38,792 nt of DNA from Saprospirales bacterium (GTDB taxonomy: Bacteria; Bacteroidota; Bacteroidia; Chitinophagales; Saprospiraceae): contig RECS01000115.1 in the NCBI GenBank assembly GCA_007693915.1, positions 1-38,792 on the forward strand, written 5' to 3'. The translations under genes and the position numbers were made by a program. The first letter of the stretch is position 1. Every line of letters starts with the position of its first letter. Positions 5,340-17,995 of this stretch are shown here, in pieces. The notes below the pieces were generated by a model. The model did not search any database. It saw nothing but the letters and a program-made list of their open reading frames with translations, and was not told the origin of the DNA.

Positions 5340-6116
5340 ATGAATAAGCTATTACTACCAACTTTTTTCTCAGTTTTTTTTCTTTTCGGTTCACTAAATT
5401 CATTTGCCTGGGGACCAATAGGTCACTATACCATAGGACAATTAGCAGAATGGCAAATGCGGCCTAGTACACTTGAAAAAGTCAATCAGGTCCTTGAAAA
5501 TGAATCTATCGCAGCGGTAGGCACCTGGATGGATCAAATAAGATCAGATACCGCCTATGATTACACCAGAACCTGGCATTGGATCACAACTGTCGATGGA
5601 ATATACGATCCATCAATTCAAGAAGAAACAGGAGATGCTTTTTCAGCTTTTCTTACGCTAAAAGAAAATCTCAAATCAGGGAAACTCTCCCCGAAAGAAG
5701 AAAGAGATCAACTCAGAATGCTTATTCATATAGTGGGTGATTTACACCAACCACTGCATGTAGGTCAGCCCGGTGACAGAGGAGGAAACGATGTGCCGGT
5801 CACTTTTTTTAATCGCCAAACCAATCTGCATGCTGTATGGGACTATCACCTTATCGAAAATCGCAGGATGAGTTATTCAGAACTTGCCGCTGAATTGAAT
5901 AGGAGAATTACTCCAGAATTGGTTAAGGAATATGAATCAGCGCGACCGGCTGACTGGTTGGTTGAAGCAGCGGAGTTGAGACCGTATATTTACGATATTC
6001 CGGATAATGCAGAGATTAGATACCAGTATATTTATAAACATTATCACATTGTGGAGGAGAGGATACTCGCCGCAGGGATAAGGCTTGCAAAAATCCTGGA
6101 GGATATCTACGGCTAA
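5340..6116 (+). CDS. secreted S1/P1 nuclease
   Basis: Zinc-dependent single-strand nuclease and 3'-nucleotidase acting outside the cytoplasm. The signal peptide ends at NSFA, so the mature protein starts with Trp (residue 24), whose backbone nitrogen is a zinc ligand in nuclease P1. Further ligands appear in order: WGPIGH, the Asp of TWMDQIRSD, HWIT, the HIVGDLHQPLHVG motif and NLHAVWD. Length (258) is typical for bacterial members. Likely role is scavenging nucleotides or phosphate from environmental RNA and DNA. A weak TAACTTTA element lies just upstream. Confidence 0.93.
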   Translation: MNKLLLPTFFSVFFLFGSLNSFAWGPIGHYTIGQLAEWQMRPSTLEKVNQVLENESIAAVGTWMDQIRSDTAYDYTRTWHWITTVDGIYDPSIQEETGDAFSAFLTLKENLKSGKLSPKEERDQLRMLIHIVGDLHQPLHVGQPGDRGGNDVPVTFFNRQTNLHAVWDYHLIENRRMSYSELAAELNRRITPELVKEYESARPADWLVEAAELRPYIYDIPDNAEIRYQYIYKHYHIVEERILAAGIRLAKILEDIYG

Positions 6117-6225
6117 AGATGTTTTCTATTGTCATTTTCAGAAATGAACAATTCGACTTGCTTTTGATTGTTCTAATTCACATCATCTTTACTATTATCA
6201 TTTTTCAATATCATAAAGCAAATCA

Positions 6226-7008
6226 TTGAGACCCAAAAAATCATACGGACAACATTTTCTCACCAGTGAAAGTATAGCAGATAAAATTGCCCAAAGTCTT
6301 TCCGGGGAGGGCTACGATAAAGTCCTGGAAGTGGGACCGGGCAAAGGGATGCTTACTAAATATCTGCTGCAGTCCAAAGGATATGAGATTACAGCAGTCG
6401 ATGCCGACAGCGATATGATAGATTATATGGAGGAGCATTATCCTGAGCTTGCAGGAAGGCTGTATTGCTTTGACTTTCTCAGATTTGATCCCACTAAGGT
6501 ATTTGGCGAAAAGCAATTTGCCCTCATCGGAAATTATCCTTATAATATTAGTTCGCAGATTGTATTCCGAATGCTGAAGTACAGAGAATATATACCGGAA
6601 ATGATCGGAATGTTCCAAAAGGAAATGGCAGATAGGATTATATCTGGCCCCGGATCGAAAGAATACGGTGTCATCAGTGTGCTTACACAGGTGTACTACA
6701 AATGCGAGCGATTATTCAATGTAGAACGCGGGAGTTTTAATCCACCGCCAAAAGTGCGCTCTGCCGTTATTCGGTGTACTAGAATAGAAAACAGTTATCC
6801 CGAACTCGACTACAGCCTTTTCCGCTCAGTAGTAAAAAGTGCTTTCAACAACAGAAGGAAAATGCTGAGAAACACCATGAAGAGTTTTCTAAAAGGTAGT
6901 CCCCTGCTTAATGATGAATTTTTTCAACAAAGACCTGAACAATTATCCGTTGATGACTTTGTACAATTAACCAATCAGGTTAAAGAATTTCAAAAATCCA
7001 TAAAATGA
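6226..7008 (+). CDS. rsmA: 16S rRNA (adenine1518/1519-N6)-dimethyltransferase
   Basis: Dimethylates two adjacent adenines in helix 45 of 16S rRNA during small-subunit maturation, using S-adenosylmethionine. The N-terminus RPKKSYGQHFL is diagnostic of KsgA/RsmA; the SAM loop VGPGKGMLT and the catalytic NYPYNISSQ motif follow, and the C-terminal helical domain contains FNPPPKVRSAV. Length is 260, normal. The start must be TTG at 6226, because no ATG or GTG lies at or just before the conserved beginning. It overlaps the next gene by four bases (ATGA), indicating translational coupling. Also known as ksgA. Confidence 0.96.
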   Translation: MRPKKSYGQHFLTSESIADKIAQSLSGEGYDKVLEVGPGKGMLTKYLLQSKGYEITAVDADSDMIDYMEEHYPELAGRLYCFDFLRFDPTKVFGEKQFALIGNYPYNISSQIVFRMLKYREYIPEMIGMFQKEMADRIISGPGSKEYGVISVLTQVYYKCERLFNVERGSFNPPPKVRSAVIRCTRIENSYPELDYSLFRSVVKSAFNNRRKMLRNTMKSFLKGSPLLNDEFFQQRPEQLSVDDFVQLTNQVKEFQKSIK

Positions 7009-7451
7009 ACTTAAAAGACCAAATCAATCAGGACATCAAAAACGCAATGAGAGCCAAAGACCAAGCTGCTCTTCGCGCACTGCGCTCCATAAAATCTGCC
7101 ATCCTACTTGCTGAAACTGATGGCTCCGGAAATGAAGTAGATGACGCTGTAGTTTTAAAAATAATTCAAAAACTTGCCAAGCAGAGGAAGGAATCTTTAG
7201 AATTATTTGAGAACCAAAACAGACCTGACCTTGCTGAAAAAGAAAGTGAGGAGCTAAAAACCCTCGAAAATTACCTACCCAAACAGATGAGCGAATCTGA
7301 ATTGGAGGTTTTTCTGAAAAATCTGGTCAGTGAATTAGGTGCAGAGGGCATGAAGGATATGGGTAAAGTCATGGGAGCTGCTCAGGGTCAACTGGCCGGA
7401 AAGGCAGATGGTAAGGCCATATCGAAAATAGTCAGGGAGCTGTTGAAGTAA
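7005..7451 (+). CDS. GatB/YqeY domain-containing protein
   Basis: A 148-residue stand-alone YqeY protein, homologous to the C-terminal tRNA-binding tail domain of GatB, the amidotransferase subunit that completes Gln-tRNA and Asn-tRNA. Family features: helical N-terminus with the RALRSIKSAI segment, LENYLPKQMSE, and the C-terminal MGKVMGAAQGQLAGKADGK. The cellular function of stand-alone members is not settled. The ATG overlaps the rsmA stop, so both are made from one transcript. Confidence 0.93.
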   Translation: MNLKDQINQDIKNAMRAKDQAALRALRSIKSAILLAETDGSGNEVDDAVVLKIIQKLAKQRKESLELFENQNRPDLAEKESEELKTLENYLPKQMSESELEVFLKNLVSELGAEGMKDMGKVMGAAQGQLAGKADGKAISKIVRELLK

Positions 7452-7800
7452 TTCAAGCTTGACTATTTTTATTTTGCACTTCCTTTAATAAAACCGGATT
7501 CTATCTGTCTTTTGCCTTGATTTTTTTCTACCGGCCTAAAGCCAATTGATAACAGAAACGGGTTTATAGAGTGGACTTATTTACTATTTAGTATGCATTT
7601 CTTTTCTATTGAATAAAAAGTGTTACTTTTGCGCCCTTAAAAAAAATTAGAGCGCTATTATGCTCTATTTATTTAACAGGCTTACCCCACCGTGAAATAG
7701 TCATTTCAATAAGTTTTCAAGTTCTTACTTAACCTTCTTAATTTCCACTTTACCTGCAAACTCAACGGTAAAGTTTAAAATCAGTATAAACTAAGTTTAC
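7452..7800 (+). promoter_or_regulatory. upstream region and long leader of the SulP gene
   Basis: A 349-base gene-free gap. TACTTTTG at 7624-7631 matches TAnnTTTG exactly and is followed by GCGCC and an A-run. If transcription starts just after it, the mRNA has a leader of about 160 bases before the ATG at 7801. Within that leader AGAGC (7649-7653) pairs with GCTCT (7662-7666) in a small hairpin. I do not recognise a known riboswitch. Confidence 0.4.
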
Positions 7801-8481
7801 ATGAATAAATATGCCCGCTTGTACCGTCAAAAAAGCAAGAAAGAGTACAAAAAAGTCATCAACTTATTTAGCAAATCATCTGAGGAGAGCGCTAAAACAG
7901 AAATTTTATCCGGATTGACCGTAGCATTGGCTCTTGTACCTGAGGCAATAGCTTTTGCCATGATTGCAGGTTTATCTCCATTGACAGGCTTATACGCAGC
8001 AATTGTAGTAGGTTTAGTTACCTCTATTTTAGGTGGTCGTCCCGGTATGATTTCAGGTGCTACGGGTGCCATAGCTGTTGTCATTGTTGCATTGGCGATT
8101 TCACATGGTCCTGAATATGTATTTGCCACTGTTGTTTTAGCGGGAATCCTCCAGGTTTTAGCGGGTGTATTCAGAGCAGGTAAATTAATGAGATTAGTAC
8201 CGCACCCTGTTATTTTTGGGTTTGTAAATGGTTTAGCTATAATCATTTTCTTGTCCCAATTAGAACAGTTTAAAGACCCTTCAGGAAGTTGGCTCACGGG
8301 TGAACCGCTTTTTATTCTCCTAGGTTTGGTATTGCTGACCATGCTAATAATCTGGGGATTGCCAAAAATCACTAAGGCAATTCCTTCCTCTCTGATAGCT
8401 ATATTGTCGGTTTTTGGGATAGTAATAGCATTTGGGATTGACACCAGGTCAGTAGGAGACATTGCTTCAATTGAAGGGTGA
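7801..8481 (+). pseudogene. SulP anion transporter, N-terminal part, ends at internal TGA
   Basis: First 226 codons of a SulP/SLC26-type inorganic anion transporter (sulfate, bicarbonate or a related anion). The membrane core is clear: [20 protein letters not shown], the SPLTGLYAA segment and [13 protein letters not shown], all strongly conserved in the family. The frame ends at TGA 8479-8481 after IASIEG, in the middle of the transport domain. The next codon in the same frame resumes SulP sequence without loss. The family normally has Gly here, and TGA is one base from GGA. No other damage is visible, so the mutation is recent, a sequencing error, or read through. The N-terminus is about 25 residues longer than in many relatives. 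Confidence 0.85.
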
Positions 8482-9375
8482 TTCCCTCCCTTTCACATTC
8501 CCAATGTTCCCCTAACATTGGAGACCCTAACGCTCATTTTTCCATATGCAGCGATCATGGCTGCTGTGGGTTTGATTGAAAGTTTATTGACCTTAAATAT
8601 TGTTGATGAAATTACAGAAACCCGGGGCAAAAGCAACAAGGAGGCGGTAGCACAAGGAACAGCAAATATTTTTTCCGGCTTTTTTTCCGGCATGGGCGGA
8701 TGTGCGATGATTGGGCAAAGCCTGATCAACATATCCAATGGTGCAAGAGCACGCCTTTCCGGAATAGTCGCGGCATTGACCCTTCTGGCGTTTGTAATGT
8801 TCGGCTCAAGCGTCATTGAGTTACTCCCAATGGCAGCACTTACCGGCTTGATGATAATGGTTGCTATTGGTACTTTTGAATGGGCAAGCCTCAGGACATT
8901 TAATAGAATGCCTAAATCTGATATTTTTGTTATGGTGGTGGTTACTCTGGTTACTGTAGTTCTGCACAATTTAGCCTTAGCTGTTATCATTGGGGTCATT
9001 ATTGCTGCTTTGGTCTTTGCCTGGGATAATGCTAAACGAATACGCGCCAGAAAACACATCGATGAAAATGGGGTAAAACATTACGAAATTTATGGTCCTC
9101 TATTTTTTGGTTCAGTTTTAGTATTCAATGATAAGTTTGATGTTTTAAATGATCCCGAAGAGGTGATTATTGACTTTAGGGAGAGCCGTGTTGTTGATAT
9201 GTCAGCAATTGAGGCCTTAAATAAAATCACTGAACGCTACATGAAAGTTGGTAAAAGAGTTCATCTGCGCCACTTGAGTCCTGACTGTCAAAAACTGTTG
9301 AAAAATGCAGATAAAATCATCGATATTAATGTTTTGGAAGATCCGAGTTATAAGGTGTTAACAGACAAGCTATAA
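8482..9375 (+). pseudogene. SulP anion transporter, C-terminal part with STAS domain
   Basis: Continuation of the SulP gene in the same frame after the TGA. It holds the rest of the membrane domain (FPYAAIMAAVGLIESLL, DEITETRGKSNKEA, GGCAMIGQSLINISNGARAR, VPMAALTGLMIMVA-like stretch) and a cytoplasmic STAS domain (about the last 100 residues, with VIIDFRESRVVDMSAIEAL). Joined with the upstream part, the protein would be 524 residues, the normal family size. Independent translation could begin at a TTG at 8518, but a half transporter is not expected to work. Expression as one protein would need suppression of the stop. Confidence 0.85.
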
Positions 9376-9434
9376 GAGCTATTTATTAGCCACTCCGGTA
9401 AAAATATCTTTAAAGCTGATAGCAATCATCATCT

Positions 9435-9454
9435 AAGGTGATTAAAATCATCTT
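9435..9454 (+). promoter_or_regulatory. FNR/CRP-type palindrome before the copper ATPase
   Basis: TGAT (9439-9442), four bases, ATCA (9447-9450) is the core of an FNR-type box (TTGAT-N4-ATCAA). The dyad extends outward to AAG at 9435 and CTT at 9452-9454, with 8 of 10 positions symmetric. A -7-like CATTTTTG lies at 9474-9481, which would place the palindrome centre about 42 bases before the start of transcription, the usual position for a class II activator. Oxygen-responsive control would suit a cbb3 oxidase copper pump. The regulator is inferred, not seen. Confidence 0.5.
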
Positions 9455-9507
9455 TTTCCACTCTCTTTACCCGCATTTTTGCAATTAAAGAGAGAAAATC
9501 ATTTTTG

Positions 9508-11952
9508 ATGAGTACAAAAACCGGGGATTTGCTCAGAGAGAACCCTGCCGGTGATACCCAACTCAGGGACAAACCGGACTGTTTTCATTGCGGCGAAGTA
9601 GTGGAAACAGATAAATATGTGGAGGAGGAAAAATCCTTTTGCTGCAATGGTTGCCATATGGCTTACCATCTCATACAATCTGCCGGCCTTGATTTCTACT
9701 ATGATGATGCGAAAAACCCACTCTTAGAAAGGAAAAAAATAGACCTGGAGGAGGGAAAATTTGCCTATCTGGACAATGAGGACATTGCTGCCAAAATCAT
9801 CCGGTATGAGGAGGGTTCCATTAAACAAGTCTGGCTGGATCTGCCTTCTATACACTGTGCATCCTGTCTGAGAGTGCTTGAAAATCTGCATCGCTTTGAC
9901 AGAGGTGTCATTAAAGTAAGTGTGAATTTTGAAAAGAAAACTGCCCATGTACTTTTCGACAGTGATAAAATCAGTCTTCGGAAATTGGTTTTCCTGCTTG
10001 CAAGTATCGGCTACGAACCGAGTTTGACTCTTGAGGAGATTACCGAAAAAAACGACCGGCGTACCAATATGTCGCTGATCTACAAGCTCGGAGTCGCCGG
10101 ATTTTGCTTTGGTAATATCATGCTACTCAGTCTTCCCGACTACTTTGCCGGCTCGAGAGAAATCGAGGCCAATCTCGATGAATGGTTTAAATACCTATCC
10201 TTGATTCTATCCCTACCTGTATTCTTTTATTCCAGTCAGGCCTTTTTCAAACCGGCAATTGCAGGCTTGAAACAGAACTATGTAAATATGGATTTCCCGG
10301 TGGCCCTTGCGATTCTGGCAACCTTTGTCCGTTCCGTGGTGGATGTACTTTTCGGTTTTGGAACAGGCTTTTTTGACAGTATGTCCGGTATCGTGTTTTT
10401 TATGCTGGTGGGACGTTATTTGCAGTCGCGGACCCATACTTCCCTGTCTTTTGACAGAGATTTTCGTTCCTATTTCCCCATTGCTATTGATACCTTGGTG
10501 AAAGATCAATTCCTCCCCAAAGCCCTTCCTGATCTGGAAAAAGGAGATATCATCAGAATCCGACCCGGTGAAATTATACCGGGCGATGGAAGGATACTAG
10601 ATGGAGATGGGCATATCGACTACAGTTTCGTCACCGGAGAATCTGCCATCATTAAGGTAAACAAGGGAGAAAAAGTCTTTTCAGGAGGCCGGCAGACGCG
10701 TAACTTACTTACCGTCCAACTGAGTTCCAAGGTAGCGCAGTCTTATCTCACCAGCTTATGGAATAAAGATGCTTTCAAAAAGAAAAGTCAGAAGCGGATG
10801 GAAAAATTTGATCGCTGGGGCAGGGACTTCACCTGGGGCGTTATTGCGATTGCTGTAATTGCTGCTATTGTCTGGCTTTTTATTGATCCCTATAAAAGCA
10901 TGGATGCATTTACTGCTGTCTTGATCATTGCCTGTCCCTGTGCCCTTTTGGTCACAGTAGCTTATACACATGGACACCTCCTCAATGTGTTGTCCAGAAA
11001 TGAATTTTATCTTCGTGACTCCGGAGTCTTGAGTACTTTGGCTCATCCTGATGCCATAGTTTGGGATAAAACCGGTACCCTCACCAGTCAAAAAAAATTC
11101 ACGGCTACCTTCGTGGGAACAGATATCAGTGATATCGAAAAAATTGCGGTGGCTTCTGTTACCTCTCTTTCTCTGCATCCACTTAGTCAGATCATTACAG
11201 AACACCTGAAGAGCCGTCAGCAATTAGATGTCAGGGGTTATGAAGAAATTGCGGGAAAAGGAATCACAGCCAATGCAGGGGATATCCAGATAAAAGCTGG
11301 AAGTAGTCAGTTTATTCTTGGAAAGGCTGAGGAAAAAAGCAAAAATGGCTCGAGGGTACACATTGAAATTAATGGACAATACAGGGGCTATTTTGAACTG
11401 ATCCATTTATACCGAAACCGGATTCTGGAGACCGTATCCGGGCTTTCCGGGAAAACCCCCAATATTGTCCTCAGTGGTGACAATGATGCAGAGAAGGCTT
11501 ATCTACAAGAGGTATTAGGAGAAAAGGTAGATTTAAAATTTGAGCAGTTACCGGCAGACAAGTTGGAATACCTCAAAAAGATAAAAGAGGAAGGAAAGAA
11601 AGCCATCATGATAGGTGACGGTCTCAATGATGCCGGCGCACTTCAACAAAGCGAACTCGGTCTTGCCGTTTCCGATCAATTGAATAATTTTACCCCTGCC
11701 AGCGATGGTATCATCAAAGGGGATCAATTGCATCGCTTACCCGATTTCATGAAGCTTGCATCTTGGGGACAAAGATTAATCGCAGGCGTTTTTACCTACT
11801 CAGCCATTTACAATATTGCCGGCATATGGTTTGCTGTCAGGGCTGAGTTATCTCCCATGATAGCAGCCATCATTATGCCGCTGAGTTCTATTTCAATCAT
11901 TCTTATCACCTTTACCGGGGTGTATATTTTTTCAAAGAAGTTGGGTTTGTAA
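9508..11952 (+). CDS. CcoI/FixI-type copper-translocating P1B-ATPase
   Basis: Inner-membrane copper pump of the type that supplies copper for cbb3-type cytochrome oxidase assembly. In order: an N-terminal Cys-rich zinc-finger-like domain (CFHCG and FCCNGC, about residues 25-52), an HMA domain with IHCASC, membrane helices, the actuator loop (TGES), the CPC metal site in IIACPCALLV (Cys476-Pro-Cys478), the phosphorylated Asp520 in DKTGTLT, the SLHPLSQ nucleotide-binding motif, and GDGLNDAGAL. The Cys-rich domain is the mark of CcoI/FixI over CopA. I chose ATG 9508; an in-frame TTG lies directly before it. No cco genes flank it, so the oxidase must be elsewhere. Length is 814 residues. Confidence 0.92.
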   Translation: MSTKTGDLLRENPAGDTQLRDKPDCFHCGEVVETDKYVEEEKSFCCNGCHMAYHLIQSAGLDFYYDDAKNPLLERKKIDLEEGKFAYLDNEDIAAKIIRYEEGSIKQVWLDLPSIHCASCLRVLENLHRFDRGVIKVSVNFEKKTAHVLFDSDKISLRKLVFLLASIGYEPSLTLEEITEKNDRRTNMSLIYKLGVAGFCFGNIMLLSLPDYFAGSREIEANLDEWFKYLSLILSLPVFFYSSQAFFKPAIAGLKQNYVNMDFPVALAILATFVRSVVDVLFGFGTGFFDSMSGIVFFMLVGRYLQSRTHTSLSFDRDFRSYFPIAIDTLVKDQFLPKALPDLEKGDIIRIRPGEIIPGDGRILDGDGHIDYSFVTGESAIIKVNKGEKVFSGGRQTRNLLTVQLSSKVAQSYLTSLWNKDAFKKKSQKRMEKFDRWGRDFTWGVIAIAVIAAIVWLFIDPYKSMDAFTAVLIIACPCALLVTVAYTHGHLLNVLSRNEFYLRDSGVLSTLAHPDAIVWDKTGTLTSQKKFTATFVGTDISDIEKIAVASVTSLSLHPLSQIITEHLKSRQQLDVRGYEEIAGKGITANAGDIQIKAGSSQFILGKAEEKSKNGSRVHIEINGQYRGYFELIHLYRNRILETVSGLSGKTPNIVLSGDNDAEKAYLQEVLGEKVDLKFEQLPADKLEYLKKIKEEGKKAIMIGDGLNDAGALQQSELGLAVSDQLNNFTPASDGIIKGDQLHRLPDFMKLASWGQRLIAGVFTYSAIYNIAGIWFAVRAELSPMIAAIIMPLSSISIILITFTGVYIFSKKLGL

Positions 11953-12574
11953 ATCTTTGGGATATTTTGTTTTAACCAGAGTTCTTCACAAAATTTCTAC
12001 TACAAAGTCAAACTGTCGGTTATAATTGAATATGAAAAACTCACTTTGTGTTTTTCCAATCATAGGAGGTGTAAACTCAATTTGCATGAAGAATTATACC
12101 TTATTTTATGTATTTGGTTTTTGACTATATCCATTGCCCATCAATAATTTCATTTTATAACCAACTGATAATCTATATATATATATATTCGAAGAATATG
12201 TAAAAAATACCATAAAAAACCCCCTAAAAAGATTGCTACATTTAAATATTCTCAATTATTATTGCAAAAGTAAATACTGTTTTATAATAAATTCCTTTAA
12301 CCCTATTGTAGAATGATCGCCATCTCGACATACAATAAAAAAGCAGGGAGCACCCTAGGATCAGAATATCTTATTTCCTTTTGTCCTTCCCGGCTGTATG
12401 GTCGTGGTGGATTTTATGAATAAATTTCCAGTCTTTATTCCGGGTTAACATAGGAGTAACTTAAGCAAGTTGTTTTTGAAGTATATGGTTATTTGATTAG
12501 CTGTTACTAATCACCTCTAGTATTTCATTGATCATTCAGAGGCTAGGGATTCTCTTATTATTACCTGGATTTAA
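11953..12574. other. gene-poor stretch after the copper ATPase
   Basis: No supportable gene. It contains a TA dinucleotide run at 12174-12188, a small hairpin with arms ATATTC (12185-12190) and GAATAT (12194-12199), and on the minus strand an exact -7 element TACTTTTG (plus-strand CAAAAGTA, 12265-12272) with no gene behind it. A 35-codon frame at 12313-12423 has no recognisable features. Confidence 0.5.
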
Positions 12575-12769
12575 CAAGTCATTTCTCTATTCAATTCAAC
12601 CGGCCAAGACATCGGAAACACTGAATTTGACAATAAAATCAAAGACGGATGGACGAAAGATAAGGTGCATTCGGATTTATAAAATGAAGAAAAGTATGAC
12701 TCTTGGAGCCTGAGAAAGAAATAGAATGAAAGCTTGTTGACTGGAACCTATTATCCAAAGAAATCATAA
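12575..12769 (+). pseudogene. decayed coding remnant with in-frame stops
   Basis: One frame reads as protein-like sequence broken by two stops: a segment containing STGQDIGNTEFDNKIKDGW, TAA at 12680, then NEEKYDSWSLRKK, TAG at 12722, then NESLLTGTYYPKKS and TAA at 12767. Charge and residue mix look coding, unlike the surrounding AT-rich spacer. The family is not recognised. It probably marks a gene lost before the lipoprotein gene. The overlapping frame at 12528-12713 looks less protein-like. Tentative. Confidence 0.3.
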
Positions 12770-12794
12770 ATTTTTTTAACAAAACAATAATACA

Positions 12795-13805
12795 ATGAAA
12801 AATTATATTAAGGCATTGTCTTTGGTCATATGTGGTGGATTCCTACTTCTTACATTTGGTTGTGAAAAAGAGATAGTTAATAGCTCAATCCATAATGAAA
12901 GTCCTGTAGAAATAAATAACCCGCCTAATGACTTTGTTGTAAATTCAATAGTCAATCCATGCTATGCCGGACTGTTTGATTCTATTCAAGTCCACAATGG
13001 ATTGTTGAAATTTGTCGATATGGATCATTTAGAAGATGTTTATAACTGTCTTGAATACCTATACGAAATCAATCAACAAGAGTTTGAGGATGCATACGGA
13101 CATTTAACTCTTAAACAAATGGATTCTATGGAATTAGTTGTAGGTTTTAATCATTGGGAACCCTATGAGGATTTTGAGGACCTATTTTCCTACTCTTCAC
13201 GACGAGAATACATTGAAAATTTAATAGTAGCATTTCTTGATCAGGATAATCCTGACTGGGAAAACGATCCGGATGATTTGGATGACCTTGATGAAACTAT
13301 GAGGACTCTTGTAAATATAGAAGGAGACTTAATTATTGGTTCTGATGTAGTTAATCTAATTAATTTTCAAGGTTTCGAGGCAATTAATAATGGGATGAGT
13401 AGTGAGCGATCAGAAAATTGCAAAAGGTGGGGTCGTGAGATAACAAGACCTATGGTCACATCAAATACCCGAATTAGACATAAAACTAAATTTAATGGGT
13501 ATTTTCCAAGAAATACGGTGAAAGGGAAAGTAGTACATCACAGATTGAGAAGCAATGGAAAGTGGAGAAGGTCTAGAGCTACTCTTTACATTACAACTTC
13601 TGGATCCAGGTCACGAGATGTTGTAAATTGTAGTACTTCTTGGCAAATGGGTTCTGTTAATGGTCCACGAAATAGACGTTCGTTAAAAACTATTCGTGGA
13701 AATTGGGGTCAGGATGGCGCCTACAGAAGTGGAGAAGTTGGATCTACAGCTACTGTAGGTAGTGGTTCTAATGTATTTCAACACCATCAAGTAATCGTGT
13801 GGTAA
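12795..13805 (+). CDS. putative lipoprotein with basic C-terminal domain
   Basis: A 336-residue protein of unknown function. A lipoprotein signal (hydrophobic core then LLTFGC, Cys at about residue 23) predicts a membrane-anchored, exported protein. The middle part is acidic (DQDNPDWENDPDDLDDLDE), while the last ~120 residues are strongly basic (KWRRSRA, RNRRSLK) and rich in Ser, Gly and Arg. The last 59 residues, from NCS (residue 278) to the final Trp, align with the end of the 77-residue protein at 15289-15522 (NCS, R-x-RRS-x-K, Y-basic-S, final Trp). A strong terminator follows at 13818-13849. The neighbours are beta-barrel proteins, so it may work at the outer membrane. Confidence 0.75.
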   Translation: MKNYIKALSLVICGGFLLLTFGCEKEIVNSSIHNESPVEINNPPNDFVVNSIVNPCYAGLFDSIQVHNGLLKFVDMDHLEDVYNCLEYLYEINQQEFEDAYGHLTLKQMDSMELVVGFNHWEPYEDFEDLFSYSSRREYIENLIVAFLDQDNPDWENDPDDLDDLDETMRTLVNIEGDLIIGSDVVNLINFQGFEAINNGMSSERSENCKRWGREITRPMVTSNTRIRHKTKFNGYFPRNTVKGKVVHHRLRSNGKWRRSRATLYITTSGSRSRDVVNCSTSWQMGSVNGPRNRRSLKTIRGNWGQDGAYRSGEVGSTATVGSGSNVFQHHQVIVW

Positions 13806-13817
13806 TATAACTTAACG

Positions 13818-13849
13818 AGAGTAGGAGAGTCTTTAGGCTCTCCTACTTT
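13818..13849 (+). terminator. intrinsic terminator after the lipoprotein gene
   Basis: AGTAGGAGAG (13820-13829) pairs perfectly with CTCTCCTACT (13838-13847) around an eight-base loop, and one more pair plus a wobble extend the base. A short T-run follows. It ends 14 bases before the next ATG. Confidence 0.85.
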
Positions 13850-13863
13850 AAAATAACCAACAT

Positions 13864-14655
13864 ATGAAGTTTATTTTTGCAATGTTACTTTTTCTATTAA
13901 CGACCTCAGTCGCAGTAGCTATCGATCACAATCCCCTTAATAAATCCAAAATGAAAGGTAGCCACTCACTGGGTTTTAAAGTAGAAGTGTTTAGGTCGCC
14001 TCATTTAGTTCAAATTGATTATTCTGGATTTTATCTATTAGATCCTTTTGTTCTCCTAGGATCAAAGGAATCAGTTGGCTTCAAAAGTAATTTAACTTAT
14101 TACTACCATCTACATCCCAAAATTCGATTGGGTCTGGGTTTCGTTGGAGGAAGGGATTCCTACAGAATACAAGTTGCTGTCACAGATGAGTTTATCTCTC
14201 AGCCGGGAGAAACTATATATCTTTTTGATAATAGATATTTTCATATTTCCTTTTTAGGTTTGGATTTTTCAATCAATCTGGACTTACCCATAGGAGATAG
14301 AAGCTATCTAAATTTTAGAACTGGAGTATCAGGAGTTTTTCTACATAATTCTACTAAAATAAAGGAGGTACACATCAAATCTCCGAGTGGTAATGATCTT
14401 GATTTGTTTGCTGCTGATTTCAAACGAAATGAGAATTTAATTTTAGCTCCCAATATAGGAATAGGATATGCCTTTCAGTTTAGTGAGAACTGGAGATTAC
14501 AACTTAATATGAATGCATTGTATTCTCGAGTTAATTCAATTGAGACCCATGGAAATTATGTATTTACTAACGGAGTGCAAAACTATGAGGGTAGTTTTGA
14601 AAAACAGTTTTTACATGCAGGAACATCATTGGAGGTTATTTACACCTTTCCTTAA
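13864..14655 (+). CDS. outer-membrane beta-barrel protein
   Basis: A 263-residue exported protein: signal peptide ending at VAVA, then alternating beta-strand pattern rich in aromatic residues (SLGFKVEVF, NLTYYYHLHPKIRLGLGFV, NLDLPIGDRSYLNFRTGVSG, LILAPNIGIGYAFQF) and a terminal strand with Phe. It resembles the outer-membrane beta-barrel/PorT-like families, with no specific assignment. It begins directly behind the lipoprotein terminator. Its first strands (LGFKVEVFRSPHLVQI) resemble those of the broken gene at 15575, which sits in the same position behind a second terminator. Confidence 0.7.
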   Translation: MKFIFAMLLFLLTTSVAVAIDHNPLNKSKMKGSHSLGFKVEVFRSPHLVQIDYSGFYLLDPFVLLGSKESVGFKSNLTYYYHLHPKIRLGLGFVGGRDSYRIQVAVTDEFISQPGETIYLFDNRYFHISFLGLDFSINLDLPIGDRSYLNFRTGVSGVFLHNSTKIKEVHIKSPSGNDLDLFAADFKRNENLILAPNIGIGYAFQFSENWRLQLNMNALYSRVNSIETHGNYVFTNGVQNYEGSFEKQFLHAGTSLEVIYTFP

Positions 14656-14711
14656 TTATTTTGGTGTTGCAAAATAGTATAATATTTTTAATTTAGAATG
14701 AAATTGTTTAT

Positions 14712-15278
14712 ATGACTAATTTTAAGGTACTTGGTTCTGTTTTATTTTTCTTATTGAGTTTTTCAATTGATGATACAAGCGCACAATCAGAAAAAAGCAC
14801 ATATTTTGGATTTAAAGGTGGGCTTAATCATAGCGACATAGTTGGAGTTAATAATTTTAATGAATATACAGGTTATTTAGGATATGAGCTTTACGCAGCT
14901 TTTTTTGCTGATACAAAAATAAATGATCGGTGGCATTTTCAAAATGAATTGCTATTTTCATGGACAGATGAATACCATTTCATTGAAGTACCCTTACACA
15001 TAAAGTATAAGGTCTTTGAAAAATGGTTCTTATTTGTAGGGCCAAAATTGGATTTTCTCCTTGATAACTCTAATGATGGCGGTTATTTTGAAGCTTATTA
15101 CAGGTTTCAGAATTTTGGTGTGTCAGTAGATACTGGAATTCAATATTATTTTGGTAGTAGATTTTTGGCAGAGGGCAGATTTTCTAGAGGATTTAGTCCC
15201 CACGTTAATGATTTACTATTAGATATTTACGAAGGAAAAAGAAATACCTATCGTTTGGGACTTGGAGTGATTTTTTAG
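14712..15278 (+). CDS. PorT-like outer-membrane beta-barrel protein
   Basis: A 188-residue exported protein with a signal peptide ending around DDTSAQ and a typical PorT/OmpA-like barrel: FGFKGGLNHSD start, FQNELLFSW, HFIEVPLHIKYKVFEKWFLFVGPKLDFLL, then VDTGIQYYFGSRFLAEGRFSRGFS and a terminal LGLGVIF strand. The segment IEVPLHIKY before the GPKLDFLL strand is characteristic of the family. The small basic protein gene starts only 10 bases downstream, so the two share a transcript that ends at the terminator near 15550. Confidence 0.78.
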   Translation: MTNFKVLGSVLFFLLSFSIDDTSAQSEKSTYFGFKGGLNHSDIVGVNNFNEYTGYLGYELYAAFFADTKINDRWHFQNELLFSWTDEYHFIEVPLHIKYKVFEKWFLFVGPKLDFLLDNSNDGGYFEAYYRFQNFGVSVDTGIQYYFGSRFLAEGRFSRGFSPHVNDLLLDIYEGKRNTYRLGLGVIF

Positions 15279-15288
15279 AAAAATAAGG

Positions 15289-15522
15289 ATGCGAGTAAAT
15301 ATGTCTGCTAGAATAGATGGAAAACCAAGGATTGGGGCTAACTGTTCAGATCCGCAACCAAGAGCTGCCCAGTCAAGTTTTAGAAAAAGAAGAAGTAGAA
15401 AAGCAGTTACCGTTCCTCCTCCATTGGTGAAGAATGCTGTTTATAAAAGCCGTGAAAATTTTGGTACATTTAAAGTAAGGAGAAATAATACCCTCACATT
15501 CGTGGTAACTCTTGAATGGTAA
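15289..15522 (+). CDS. 77-residue basic protein matching the lipoprotein C-terminal domain
   Basis: A short protein without signal peptide, strongly basic (SSFRKRRSRKAV) and ending in Trp. From NCS (residue 18) to its end it parallels the last 59 residues of the lipoprotein at 12795: NCS, then R-x-RRS-x-K, then Y-K-S, G-T-x-x-V and a final aliphatic strand with Trp, at nearly equal spacing. An AAGGATG sequence overlaps the start. It may be an expressed stand-alone domain or the leftover end of a second lipoprotein gene. A very strong terminator 13 bases after the stop favours this reading frame over the antisense frame covering the same bases. Confidence 0.6.
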   Translation: MRVNMSARIDGKPRIGANCSDPQPRAAQSSFRKRRSRKAVTVPPPLVKNAVYKSRENFGTFKVRRNNTLTFVVTLEW

Positions 15523-15534
15523 ATCTTTAATGTT

Positions 15535-15562
15535 AGATAGGGGGAAATACCCCCTATCTTTT
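15535..15562 (+). terminator. intrinsic terminator after the small basic protein gene
   Basis: AGATAGGGGG (15535-15544), loop of five bases, CCCCCTATCT (15550-15559), then T-run. The stem is a perfect 10-bp match rich in G and C. It ends 12 bases before the next ATG, the same layout as the terminator at 13818-13849. Confidence 0.9.
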
Positions 15563-15574
15563 AAACTTAATCTC

Positions 15575-15846
15575 ATGCGACTAACAACATTCCTTTTATT
15601 TATCTTCATAGCCAACCAATGCTTGGCTCAAGATCAAGATCCACATCTTCACAACAATTTATTAGGAATAAAATTTGGTGTAGGATTGTCACCTGTTTTA
15701 ACAATTAATCAAGCCCAAGGCATGACATCGGTACACATAGTTTTACTTGTAAAGTTTCTTTTATTGTTTCTGAGATTGGATATTTACTTTTTGTCTTCAT
15801 ACCACTCAATAAAAGCCTGAAAAGCTCTACCCCTGTGGCTGATTAA
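15575..15846 (+). pseudogene. frameshifted, truncated beta-barrel gene
   Basis: ATG 15575 begins a clear signal peptide ending at ANQCLAQ, then barrel-like sequence LLGIKFGVGLSPVLTI. At about 15715-15722 the pattern leaves this frame and continues in the next (HDIGTHSFTCKVSFIVSEIGYLL), ending at TAA 15844-15846, where it runs into the 3' end of rdgB on the other strand. The whole is about 90 codons, far short of a full barrel. Read as a one-base frameshift plus 3' deletion. Its first strands resemble those of the protein at 13864. Confidence 0.65.
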
Positions 15847-16386
15847 ATTCTTTATTTCCGGACTCAGGACACCGAAGGAATGATCATAGCCTTCGGGAAT
15901 AAATACCGGATCGTACCCAAAACCGCCATCCCCTTCAGCTTCTACTCCAATTTTACCGTTTACGATTCCTTCAAACAAAAACTCCCCCTTATCGTCGATA
16001 TAAGCAATTACAGTTCTGAATCGGGCCGTCCTGTCATCTTTATCCTGCAATTCTGTTAGCAGCTTTTTGATATTATTGGCATTAGATCGGTCTTCTCCTG
16101 CATAACGAGCAGAGTGAACACCCGGAGCTCCGTTCAGAAGTTTTACCTCGAGACCGGTATCTTCAGCTATACAGGCAGCTATTCCCGTCAACTTTAAAGC
16201 TTGTCGTGCCTTTGAAAGTGCGTTGCCTTCAAGAGTATCTTCGTTCTCTTCCAACTCCTGATTCAGTTTAATATCATTGAGGTCAAGCAACTGCAATTGA
16301 TTGCCTAATATCTGTCTTACTTCAGCAGTTTTATTTTTATTTGCTGTAGCGAAAAAAAGCTGTTTTATACTTTTCTTTTCATTCAT
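15784..16386 (-). CDS. rdgB: XTP/dITP diphosphatase (RdgB/HAM1)
   Basis: Removes non-canonical purine nucleoside triphosphates (XTP, dITP, ITP) by hydrolysis to the monophosphate and pyrophosphate, keeping deaminated purines out of DNA and RNA. Family motifs: FFATANKNKTAEVRQIL at the start, EDTGLEV, APGVHSARYAGE, GGFGYDPVFIPEG, and the C-terminal ISHRGRAFQAF. Length is 200, normal. It follows the 144-residue gene upstream with a gap of three bases, so the two form an operon. Its last codons overlap the decayed beta-barrel gene on the plus strand. Confidence 0.96.
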   Translation of the reverse strand: MNEKKSIKQLFFATANKNKTAEVRQILGNQLQLLDLNDIKLNQELEENEDTLEGNALSKARQALKLTGIAACIAEDTGLEVKLLNGAPGVHSARYAGEDRSNANNIKKLLTELQDKDDRTARFRTVIAYIDDKGEFLFEGIVNGKIGVEAEGDGGFGYDPVFIPEGYDHSFGVLSPEIKNLISHRGRAFQAFIEWYEDKK

Positions 16387-16389
16387 GAT

Positions 16390-16824
16390 TCAGGCATTCA
16401 ACGATTTTAATTGACTCCACAATCTTCTTTTTAAATCGGGGGTTTGACTTATTTTACTAAGGTTATCACATAGCAAAAATGAGTTACCTGCTAACTTTAG
16501 TAACCGATATGGTATGTTCTCAAGTTGAAATCCAAGCCGAGAAAAATTAAGCCCGAATGAAATGATAATACTTTTTTCCTGTAACCATTGCTCACTTAGG
16601 GTTGCAGATGATTTTTCTGGTAATTCCACAAGTAAAAAATCTTTCCCAATCGTTCTGCCAATAGCTTGCATTATCTTGCTTAGTAGCGATTTTTCATCCT
16701 CATTCAATGGTTTTGAGATCACCAATACAGGTGGGTTTCCGGTTTTTTCAAAGGGGATATATTCCGGTTTTCTGTCTTCCGGGAGGCTTACAATTTCAAG
16801 TTTATTAAAAAAAGGATAAGTCAT
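16390..16824 (-). CDS. conserved hypothetical protein, possibly DNA polymerase III psi-like
   Basis: A 144-residue cytoplasmic protein without membrane segments. The second half has the pattern IISFGLNFSRLGFQ ... YRLLKLAGNSFLLCDNLSKI ... LKRRLWSQLKSL, which I associate with a small Bacteroidota family located near housekeeping genes and loosely reminiscent of HolD (psi). That assignment is weak. It shares an operon with rdgB and is divergent from ilvE, with about 110 bases between the two starts. Confidence 0.6.
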   Translation of the reverse strand: MTYPFFNKLEIVSLPEDRKPEYIPFEKTGNPPVLVISKPLNEDEKSLLSKIMQAIGRTIGKDFLLVELPEKSSATLSEQWLQEKSIIISFGLNFSRLGFQLENIPYRLLKLAGNSFLLCDNLSKISQTPDLKRRLWSQLKSLNA

Positions 16825-16933
16825 CTTTGAGTTGGAACAATTAACACATTAAAGGAATTAATATAAAAAGATTTCGGATTGCTGATGTCACAAAGTTAGG
16901 TCAAATTTTGTACTTTAGCGAAAATTAAAGCTT

Positions 16934-17995
16934 ATGAGTAAAATAAAAATATATCCAACGGAGAATTCCCGTTTGAGTACTGTAGATTTTAACAATATTC
17001 CATTTGGTCGAGTCTTTTCAGACCATATGTTCTCTGCTGAATATGCTGATGGAGAGTGGAAAGATTTCAAAATCATACCTTTTAAAGATTTAAATATTCA
17101 TCCGGCTATGATGGCTCTTCATTATGGTCAATCCATTTTTGAAGGAATGAAAGCGACTGTTGACCAAGAGGGAAATCCACTACTTTTCAGACCTGAAAAG
17201 CATATAGAAAGACTAAATGCATCAGCCCGAAGAATGTGTATGCCGGAATTCTCAAGTGAAGTTTTTTTAGATGCTATCCATCAATTGGTGGATTTAGATC
17301 GAAAATGGATACCTCCACATGAGGGAAGTGCATTGTACCTCAGACCTTTTATTTTTGCTACAGACAAATTTATCGGGGTTACTGCTTCTCAGACATATAG
17401 ATTTTTAATTATCACTCTTCCGGTCGGACCATATTACAGCAAACCCGTAAGCCTCAAAGTTGAACGCAAATACGTCAGAGCTGTAAACGGTGGTGTAGGT
17501 GAAGCCAAGACTTGCGGCAATTATGCTGCATCCCTTCTCCCTGCAAAATTAGCTAAACAAGAGGGTTTTGATCAAGTAATGTGGATGGATGCCCACGAAT
17601 TCAAATACATACAGGAAGTGGGTACGATGAATTTGTTTTTTGTTTTTAAGGATAAAATCGTCACTCCTGCTACTGAAGGTGCAATACTGAAGGGTATCAC
17701 CCGCATGACCATATTGGACTATTTGAAATCAGAGGGATACGCTGTGGAGGAAAGACCATTAACTATTGAGGAAGTGAAAGATGCCTACAGAAAGGGTGAG
17801 TTAATCGAGGCTTTTGGAAGTGGCACTGCAGCAGTAGTCGCAACCATTGACAGGATTAACGATACGGATATTGATATGCGGTTTGATGAATCCAATTGGA
17901 AATTATCTTCAGAAATCAAGAAATATATCAATGGCTTGAGAGCAGGTAAAATTGAAGATAAGCATGGTTGGATAGTTCCGGTTGGTTCGACTTAG
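16934..17995 (+). CDS. ilvE: branched-chain amino acid aminotransferase
   Basis: PLP enzyme of fold type IV that moves the amino group between glutamate and the keto acids of leucine, isoleucine and valine, the last step of their synthesis. The sequence shows the long (BCAT type II-like, 353-residue) form: HYGQSIFEGMKA, RPEKHIERLNASARRM, LYLRPFIFAT, the PLP-binding lysine in VGEAKTCGNYAAS (about Lys192), and EVGTMNLFF. The final VGST and the stop codon lie within a GTTCGAC repeat, so the original C-terminus appears replaced by repeat sequence. It stands alone on the plus strand. Confidence 0.95.
   Translation: MSKIKIYPTENSRLSTVDFNNIPFGRVFSDHMFSAEYADGEWKDFKIIPFKDLNIHPAMMALHYGQSIFEGMKATVDQEGNPLLFRPEKHIERLNASARRMCMPEFSSEVFLDAIHQLVDLDRKWIPPHEGSALYLRPFIFATDKFIGVTASQTYRFLIITLPVGPYYSKPVSLKVERKYVRAVNGGVGEAKTCGNYAASLLPAKLAKQEGFDQVMWMDAHEFKYIQEVGTMNLFFVFKDKIVTPATEGAILKGITRMTILDYLKSEGYAVEERPLTIEEVKDAYRKGELIEAFGSGTAAVVATIDRINDTDIDMRFDESNWKLSSEIKKYINGLRAGKIEDKHGWIVPVGST

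Follow-up and report, generated by a model that had tools for sequence, protein, structure and literature searches.

The window analysed here, 38,792 nucleotides (nt) of contig RECS01000115.1 from a Saprospirales bacterium genome (G000) of the same family as genomes titled Saprospiraceae, contains an accessory block of 3840 bp, in which the gene for a predicted lipoprotein is followed by that for a putative outer-membrane beta-barrel protein. We consider it fairly probable that this block is composed of one intact lipoprotein-barrel unit, an unrelated second barrel gene, and what remains of the 3′ end of another, diverged unit, best read as a 77-amino-acid (aa) fragment of the lipoprotein's C-terminal domain (C-domain) together with its hairpin and the beginning of its barrel gene. 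The order on the plus strand is lipoprotein, hairpin, barrel 1, barrel 2, 77-aa open reading frame (ORF), second hairpin and signal-peptide ORF, with the following features:

11959..15798, no strand assigned: accessory block, 3840 bp, between a ccoI-like P-type ATPase gene and rdgB
12795..13805, plus strand: predicted lipoprotein, 336 aa, with a signal peptide, an acidic helical N-terminal domain (N-domain) and a basic beta C-domain
13413..13802, plus strand: C-terminal basic beta-sandwich domain of the lipoprotein, from family alignments and models
13818..13849, plus strand: hairpin between lipoprotein and barrel 1, from folding; position kept in several relatives
13864..14655, plus strand: barrel 1, putative outer-membrane beta-barrel protein of 263 aa, from similarity to the barrels of relatives
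14712..15278, plus strand: barrel 2, outer-membrane protein of 188 aa, Pfam OMP_b-brl_2 (E 2.1e-12)
15289..15522, plus strand: 77-aa ORF, likely a truncated remnant comprising the C-terminal half of the C-domain, from profile tests
15535..15562, plus strand: hairpin after the 77-aa ORF, from folding
15575..15798, plus strand: 5′ part of a gene for a protein with a signal peptide, putatively a third barrel, from translation, homology tests and the junction

The signal peptide of the window lipoprotein ends in TFGC at Cys23 and is followed by EKEI; the N-domain occupies residues 69-186 (net charge −27), and the C-domain begins at about residue 207 (net charge +20). These are the two conserved regions of a lipoprotein family, the N-domain covering 118 profile positions, and in some members PKD domains lie between them. 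Searching with the single sequence gave relatives at E ≤ 0.01 in 6 of 60 genomes, its own included, and in none of the seven genus-mate genomes, several of which are incomplete. In a profile search the family was present in 30 of 248 genomes of the taxonomic family (E ≤ 0.001, own included), and a later search found the C-domain in 13 of 298 genomes of the order. While a single-protein scan for named relatives returned none, a later search with the C-domain alignment yielded eight named loci, five from Saprospiraceae, two from Chitinophagaceae and one from a “Bacteroidetes” metagenome-assembled genome. After removal of duplicates, the fetched loci contain 31 ORFs with both domains (the window's included), six with only the N-domain above threshold, and two with only the C-domain above threshold, namely L076, with a weak N-region, and L036, likely an antisense false positive. 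In the members scanned, no Pfam or NCBIfam model covers either domain; a Pfam scan of nine members listed nothing but PKD models and two unrelated weak ones, and no paper on the family was found among the literature matches listed. An earlier note, made from the letters of this DNA alone, had stated that the C-terminal region matches no family recognised by its author, which holds for Pfam and NCBIfam, but the C-domain is not unique to this locus.

In the window lipoprotein the C-domain displays C209, C279, an SNGKW motif, an R/K-rich RRS motif and a final Trp, and its two cysteines are invariant in alignments of seven and eight rows. The same note had aligned the last 59 residues of the lipoprotein with the last 60 of the 77-aa product, and the sequence indeed contains both ORFs at the stated positions, with the residues that the note lists. 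Taken pairwise, the similarity is marginal: local alignment with BLOSUM62 gives p 0.005 on these 59 and 60 residues and 0.07 and 0.09 on uncut sequences, and the global alignment of the two ends exceeds all 2000 shuffles, the ends having been cut to matching terminal residues. The alignment stands up better against the family profile (p about 0.001), over the C-terminal half only. When a C-domain profile of 22 relatives is used, free of window rows, the score of the 77-aa ORF is attained in 4 of 4000 shuffles, and with one of 27 relatives, likewise free of window rows, 10 of 8000 attain its end-to-end score. All 442 other open stretches in the window and the loci, many of them not real genes, stay below its score in the latter profile, and when the 27 true family ends are withheld one at a time, 8 score lower than it does; with a profile that includes the window lipoprotein, it is second only to that protein among 65 open stretches of the window. 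HMMER places the frame second of 192 window ORFs (E 0.015-0.076), and in its local test shuffles scored equally high in 5 of 5000 cases under the first model and in 8 or more of 5000 under the last two. Rows L018, L025, L028, L031 and L036 were dropped before the profiles were built, as were L021, L032 and L071 for the 27-relative profile; the later HMMER models contained L036, and the profile tests were made without it.

The match is limited to the C-terminal half of the C-domain (profile positions 55-135 with 22 relatives) and starts just past the stop codon of barrel 2; the alignment of the last third of the ORF is not fixed, extending to position 135 or ending at 116 of 135 (27 relatives). 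Signal peptide and N-domain are missing from the ORF, as is the first of the two conserved cysteines, the other being kept. It is basic (+13), and its frame is open up to a C-terminal Trp like that of the lipoprotein. At 15301 lies another ATG, with an upstream AAGGA that is better placed than for the ATG at 15289, and a product translated from it may be 73 aa long.

Hairpins follow both ORFs, as had been noted earlier: folding energies are −21.9 kcal/mol (z −6.6) for 13812-13856 and −17.6 kcal/mol (z −3.7) for 15526-15570, with signal-peptide ORFs starting 14 and 12 nt past them (13864 and 15575). Among the 14 lipoprotein-barrel pairs described below, the gap is at least 45 nt in seven, six of which (the window, L016, L053, L058, identical to L004, L059, identical to L003, and L076) contain a strong hairpin whose z lies between −5.3 and −7.5; the gap of L074 has no strong hairpin (z −2.3). 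The barrel starts of L058, L059 and L076 are TTG or GTG codons picked by signal peptide, and L077 was kept outside the hairpin count, its likely start lying about 12 nt after the stop (the chosen 60-nt gap gave z −5.2). For comparison, of 25 control gaps (45-135 nt), 3 have z ≤ −4 and 5 have z ≤ −3, and z ≤ −4 occurs in one of five gaps before non-barrel neighbours (L060, L061, L063, L029 and L073).

The third ORF is cut off at about 15799, where homology to rdgB and collinearity with the nearest genome, G001 (locus L046), begin. The flanking genes, a ccoI-like ATPase gene ending at 11952 and rdgB at 15784-16386 on the minus strand, were named from their sequences alone, without a family scan. 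G001 is collinear with window positions 8849-11958 and 15799-17892 at 85-86% identity (blastn), and between the same flanking genes it has 528 unrelated bp instead of 3840, with no clear family remnant in a tblastn search with the family and the barrels (best E 0.011). Because G001, collinear on both flanks, has only 528 bp with weak matches at this position, the block is accessory, and it may have been either gained by G000 or lost from G001, G001 being the one outgroup among the genomes seen that shares both flanks.

On this evidence, the remnant reading is preferred to that of a free-standing gene because the match covers half a domain, parts are missing, the stop-hairpin-signal-peptide order is the same as in the intact unit, and the third ORF breaks off at the rdgB junction. 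According to one alternative, which we regard as unlikely, the 77-aa ORF would be a small basic gene in its own right, possibly co-expressed with barrel 2, and its resemblance to the C-domain would be due to chance. It does begin 10 nt past barrel 2 with a possible ribosome site, its uncut pairwise p values are only 0.07-0.09, and some shuffles match its profile score. A chance likeness, however, sits poorly with the failure of all 442 other open stretches to reach that score, with its rank next to the lipoprotein among the 65 window stretches, and with the hairpin and signal-peptide ORF that follow it as in the intact unit, and an independent gene with the lack of any homologue at E ≤ 1 in the other seven genus genomes, several of them incomplete. 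A functional stand-alone form of the C-domain, which the earlier note had offered as the alternative to a duplicated unit with a truncated second copy, is very improbable, even though the frame stays open to the final Trp and the basic character is kept: all 32 C-domain ORFs in the fetched loci (window included) are at least 249 aa long and carry an N-domain, weak in L076, so that none stands alone, and such a form would be without the first four of about eight model beta strands, the partner cysteine and the signal peptide. Since only part of the search hits were fetched, rare stand-alone copies may nevertheless occur. L036, considered as a stand-alone C-domain, was rejected, as it overlaps a longer ORF on the other strand. 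The truncated second copy is thus the better supported of the two suggestions, and the 77-aa ORF would most likely be non-functional, or at most encode a basic peptide staying in the cytoplasm.

To define how regularly a barrel accompanies the lipoprotein, we counted members with sufficient sequence downstream: out of 32 C-domain members, four (L021, L025, L030 and L031, with less than 400 nt) were left out, and the remaining 28, window included, have at least 597 nt each. A barrel-like signal-peptide gene on the same strand comes next after the lipoprotein in 14 of them (L006, L016, L035, L053, L058, L059, L065, L074, L076, L077, L078, L079, L080 and the window). Eight of the 14 paired proteins match a Pfam model for outer-membrane proteins or barrels at E ≤ 0.1 (DUF3575 and Pom being barrel families), only that of L053 lying above the cut-off; the barrel nature of the others, barrel 1 apart, was judged from a signal peptide and, by eye, the strand pattern. 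Barrel 1, which has no Pfam match, is similar to the post-lipoprotein barrels of L004 (z 6.5), L003 (z 4.2) and L053 (z 3.3), and unlike those of L016 (z 0.5) and L006 (z 1.1), while among the barrels of relatives L004 and L053 give z 15.1 and L016 and L053 z 9.8. Barrels 1 and 2 have no detectable similarity (z 0.8). The unpaired members comprise six without such an ORF within 300 nt (L020, L023, L027, L057 and one gene each of L052 and L064) and eight followed by a lipoprotein, protease or other exported protein, judged by eye not to be a barrel (L029, L032, L060, L061, L063, L073 and the other gene each of L052 and L064).

Several observations weigh against the interpretation of the block as an intact unit plus the remnant of a second one, or against the partnership on which the notion of a unit is built. 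The match of the 77-aa ORF to the C-domain family looks credible at p about 0.001, and is not overwhelming, given the E values of 0.015-0.076 from HMMER alone. The barrel half of the second unit is recognized by gene order, without sequence similarity: the third ORF shows no significant similarity to barrel 1 (p 0.20) or to the best of 11 barrels (p 0.04, uncorrected), and the similar first strands described in the earlier note were not borne out. Less striking is the fold of the gap behind the 77-aa ORF, whose z of −3.6 is equalled or surpassed in 4 of the 25 controls. Two-copy matches within the block DNA are short, at most 38 nt, with no substantial repeat between the units; duplication at this site would thus lack DNA-repeat support, and the two units could have arrived separately. 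In the other seven of the 14 pairs, the gap is at most 24 nt or the genes overlap, leaving no room for a hairpin, and 14 of the 28 members have no adjoining barrel at all. Lipidation and surface export of the window lipoprotein appear only partly supported, because TFGC departs from a perfect lipobox and a single acidic residue follows the lysine in CEKEI, and several members, such as L053 and L060, have no lipobox by eye. A physical contact between lipoprotein and barrel, finally, is a proposal.

In an AlphaFold2 model of the mature lipoprotein, built from nine sequences (mean predicted local distance difference test score, pLDDT, 67), the N-domain is helical, with pLDDT mostly 86-93, and the C-domain is all-beta, at lower confidence. 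Modelled alone, the C-domain yields a low-confidence generic beta-sandwich (pLDDT 64), the models having about eight beta strands, and it has no sequence relative in the Protein Data Bank (PDB) at E ≤ 1. Its fold matches (arrestin, complement and transglutaminase domains, MspA) are to common beta-sandwich folds, with a weak model, and no kinship is claimed. The N-domain is acidic in all 23 members measured (−4 to −33) and the C-domain basic in 22 (+3 to +30), the exception being L027 at −6; four members without a usable C-domain end were left out. Across members, a more acidic N-domain tends to go with a more basic C-domain (Spearman −0.65, p 9e-4, without correction for kinship), and these opposite, anti-correlated charges suggest that the acidic helical N-domain and the basic beta-sandwich C-domain probably contact each other or the same partner.

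We propose that the lipoprotein is exported to the outer membrane and probably exposed at the surface, and that the neighbouring small barrel would serve as its cognate outer-membrane partner or anchor, much as PorP/SprF may do for type B proteins of the type IX secretion system (T9SS). The intergenic hairpin would probably end or stabilise the lipoprotein message and so set the lipoprotein-to-barrel ratio. It is also conceivable, though we think it the less probable view, that the adjacency is incidental, the lipoprotein being a lone surface binding protein in a region where envelope genes are generally clustered; the half of the members that lack an adjoining barrel would fit this, as would the high diversity of the adjoining barrels, none of which except that of L053 exceeds a barrel-model cut-off. 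On the other hand, the same order, often with a hairpin, recurs in distant members, and several of the barrels are detectably related (L004 with L053, L016 with L053, and L004 with the window, at the z values given above).

The T9SS C-terminal domains (CTDs) are beta-sandwiches. For type B CTD proteins, a cognate PorP/SprF barrel has been proposed as the anchor, and the sprB and sprF genes are adjacent, as described in PMC9143113. What the two systems have in common is an exported protein with a C-terminal domain and an adjoining gene for an outer-membrane barrel, as in sprB-sprF. Unlike type B CTD proteins, the nine members scanned gave no match to a T9SS CTD model in Pfam, nor did the window protein in NCBIfam, and the latter is a predicted lipoprotein. 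Barrel 1 has no PorP match, and only L006 comes near, below the cut-off (E 0.0014 and 2.4e-4). On the features tested, the lipoprotein-barrel family does not belong to the T9SS CTD/PorP family. As a tentative and rather improbable extension, it might parallel the type B CTD/PorP pair, with a lipoprotein in place of the CTD protein: the basic C-domain would serve as a tag docking onto a cognate, rapidly diverging barrel by which the protein is exported or held at the cell surface, the acidic N-domain would mask the tag until the barrel is met, and the block would be such a cassette gained and broken at one chromosomal site. If the C-domain is indeed a barrel-docking tag, it would add a route for the placement of surface proteins in Bacteroidota. 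As a single locus, an accessory unit with a remnant is a modest find; at the level of the family, it defines a domain pair and a gene pair, unmatched by Pfam and NCBIfam, in Saprospiraceae and relatives, makes the partner prediction testable, and suggests a rule for recognizing broken copies, namely a C-domain tail, a hairpin and a signal-peptide ORF.

With regard to surface export, the signal C-X-K-(D/E)2 given for surface lipoproteins in PMC5080379 is fully matched in L005 (CLKEE) and L013/L052 (CNKEE), and partially in the window (CEKEI), as predicted from sequence. By eye, LTGC of L005 and ITSC of L006 fit the usual lipobox pattern, and TFGC at residue 23 of the window protein does so imperfectly; several relatives differ from Bacteroidota surface lipoproteins in having no lipobox by eye. 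Among these are the PKD-bearing L060, L061 and L063, which are followed by exported proteins of 316-400 aa that do not look like barrels.

The N-domain resembles DUF4848 (PF16140) in fold. In a Foldseek search of the PDB, the sole match of the lipoprotein model at E ≤ 0.001 was 4lb8 (DUF4848, BT3222; E 6.5e-6, prob 0.99), and VIA aligned 107 residues with Z 8.1 and a root-mean-square deviation of 3.2 over the N-domain, at model residues 37-178 (pLDDT mostly 67-93); Z 8 in a mostly helical domain can reflect a common arrangement and is by itself no proof of kinship. Over the whole model, the TM-score to 4lb8 is just 0.22-0.25 (330 columns). The Pfam model of DUF4848 matched none of 148 genomes at E ≤ 0.001, the window's own included, and one of 14 control genomes, that of Bacteroides ihuae; DUF4848 was not among the matches of nine family members at E ≤ 10 (with HMMER filters on), and 4lb8 was absent from the PDB sequence matches of a 25-sequence N-domain profile at E ≤ 10. 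Because no DUF4848 sequence match was found, the relation, as modelled, is one of fold only. DUF4848 appears in an iron-response table of PMC10434189.

The GC content is 0.30-0.39 in the block and 0.43-0.46 in most of the ATPase gene, and 0.34-0.42 to the right of the block too; because part of the right flank is equally low, low GC is weak evidence. The left end of the block (11959-12794) consists of about 830 AT-rich bp without evident genes, where GC falls to 0.30. The lipoprotein had no plasmid or phage match at E ≤ 0.01 and the window no Rfam match, so that these searches, none of which was aimed at mobile genes in the block, lend no support to a mobile-element origin. There was no PADLOC match to suggest a defence function, and a single PHROGs match (E 0.073) was disregarded as a sign of phage function.

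Elsewhere in the family, one in-frame stop each breaks the lipoprotein gene in L004/L062 (G021) and in L078 (G496), and genes of this family may be prone to decay. Locus L052 of genome G151 contains two complete tandem lipoprotein copies (5395-7593, minus strand) without an adjoining barrel, a duplication of the gene alone, and these copies have the most extreme charges measured (N-domain −32 and −33, C-domain +30). Genes for subtilisin-like proteases, named by eye, lie near family lipoproteins in two genomes (L064:2735-4378 and 6627-8114; L052:77-1666), and a relation of inhibitor or substrate to these proteases is conceivable.

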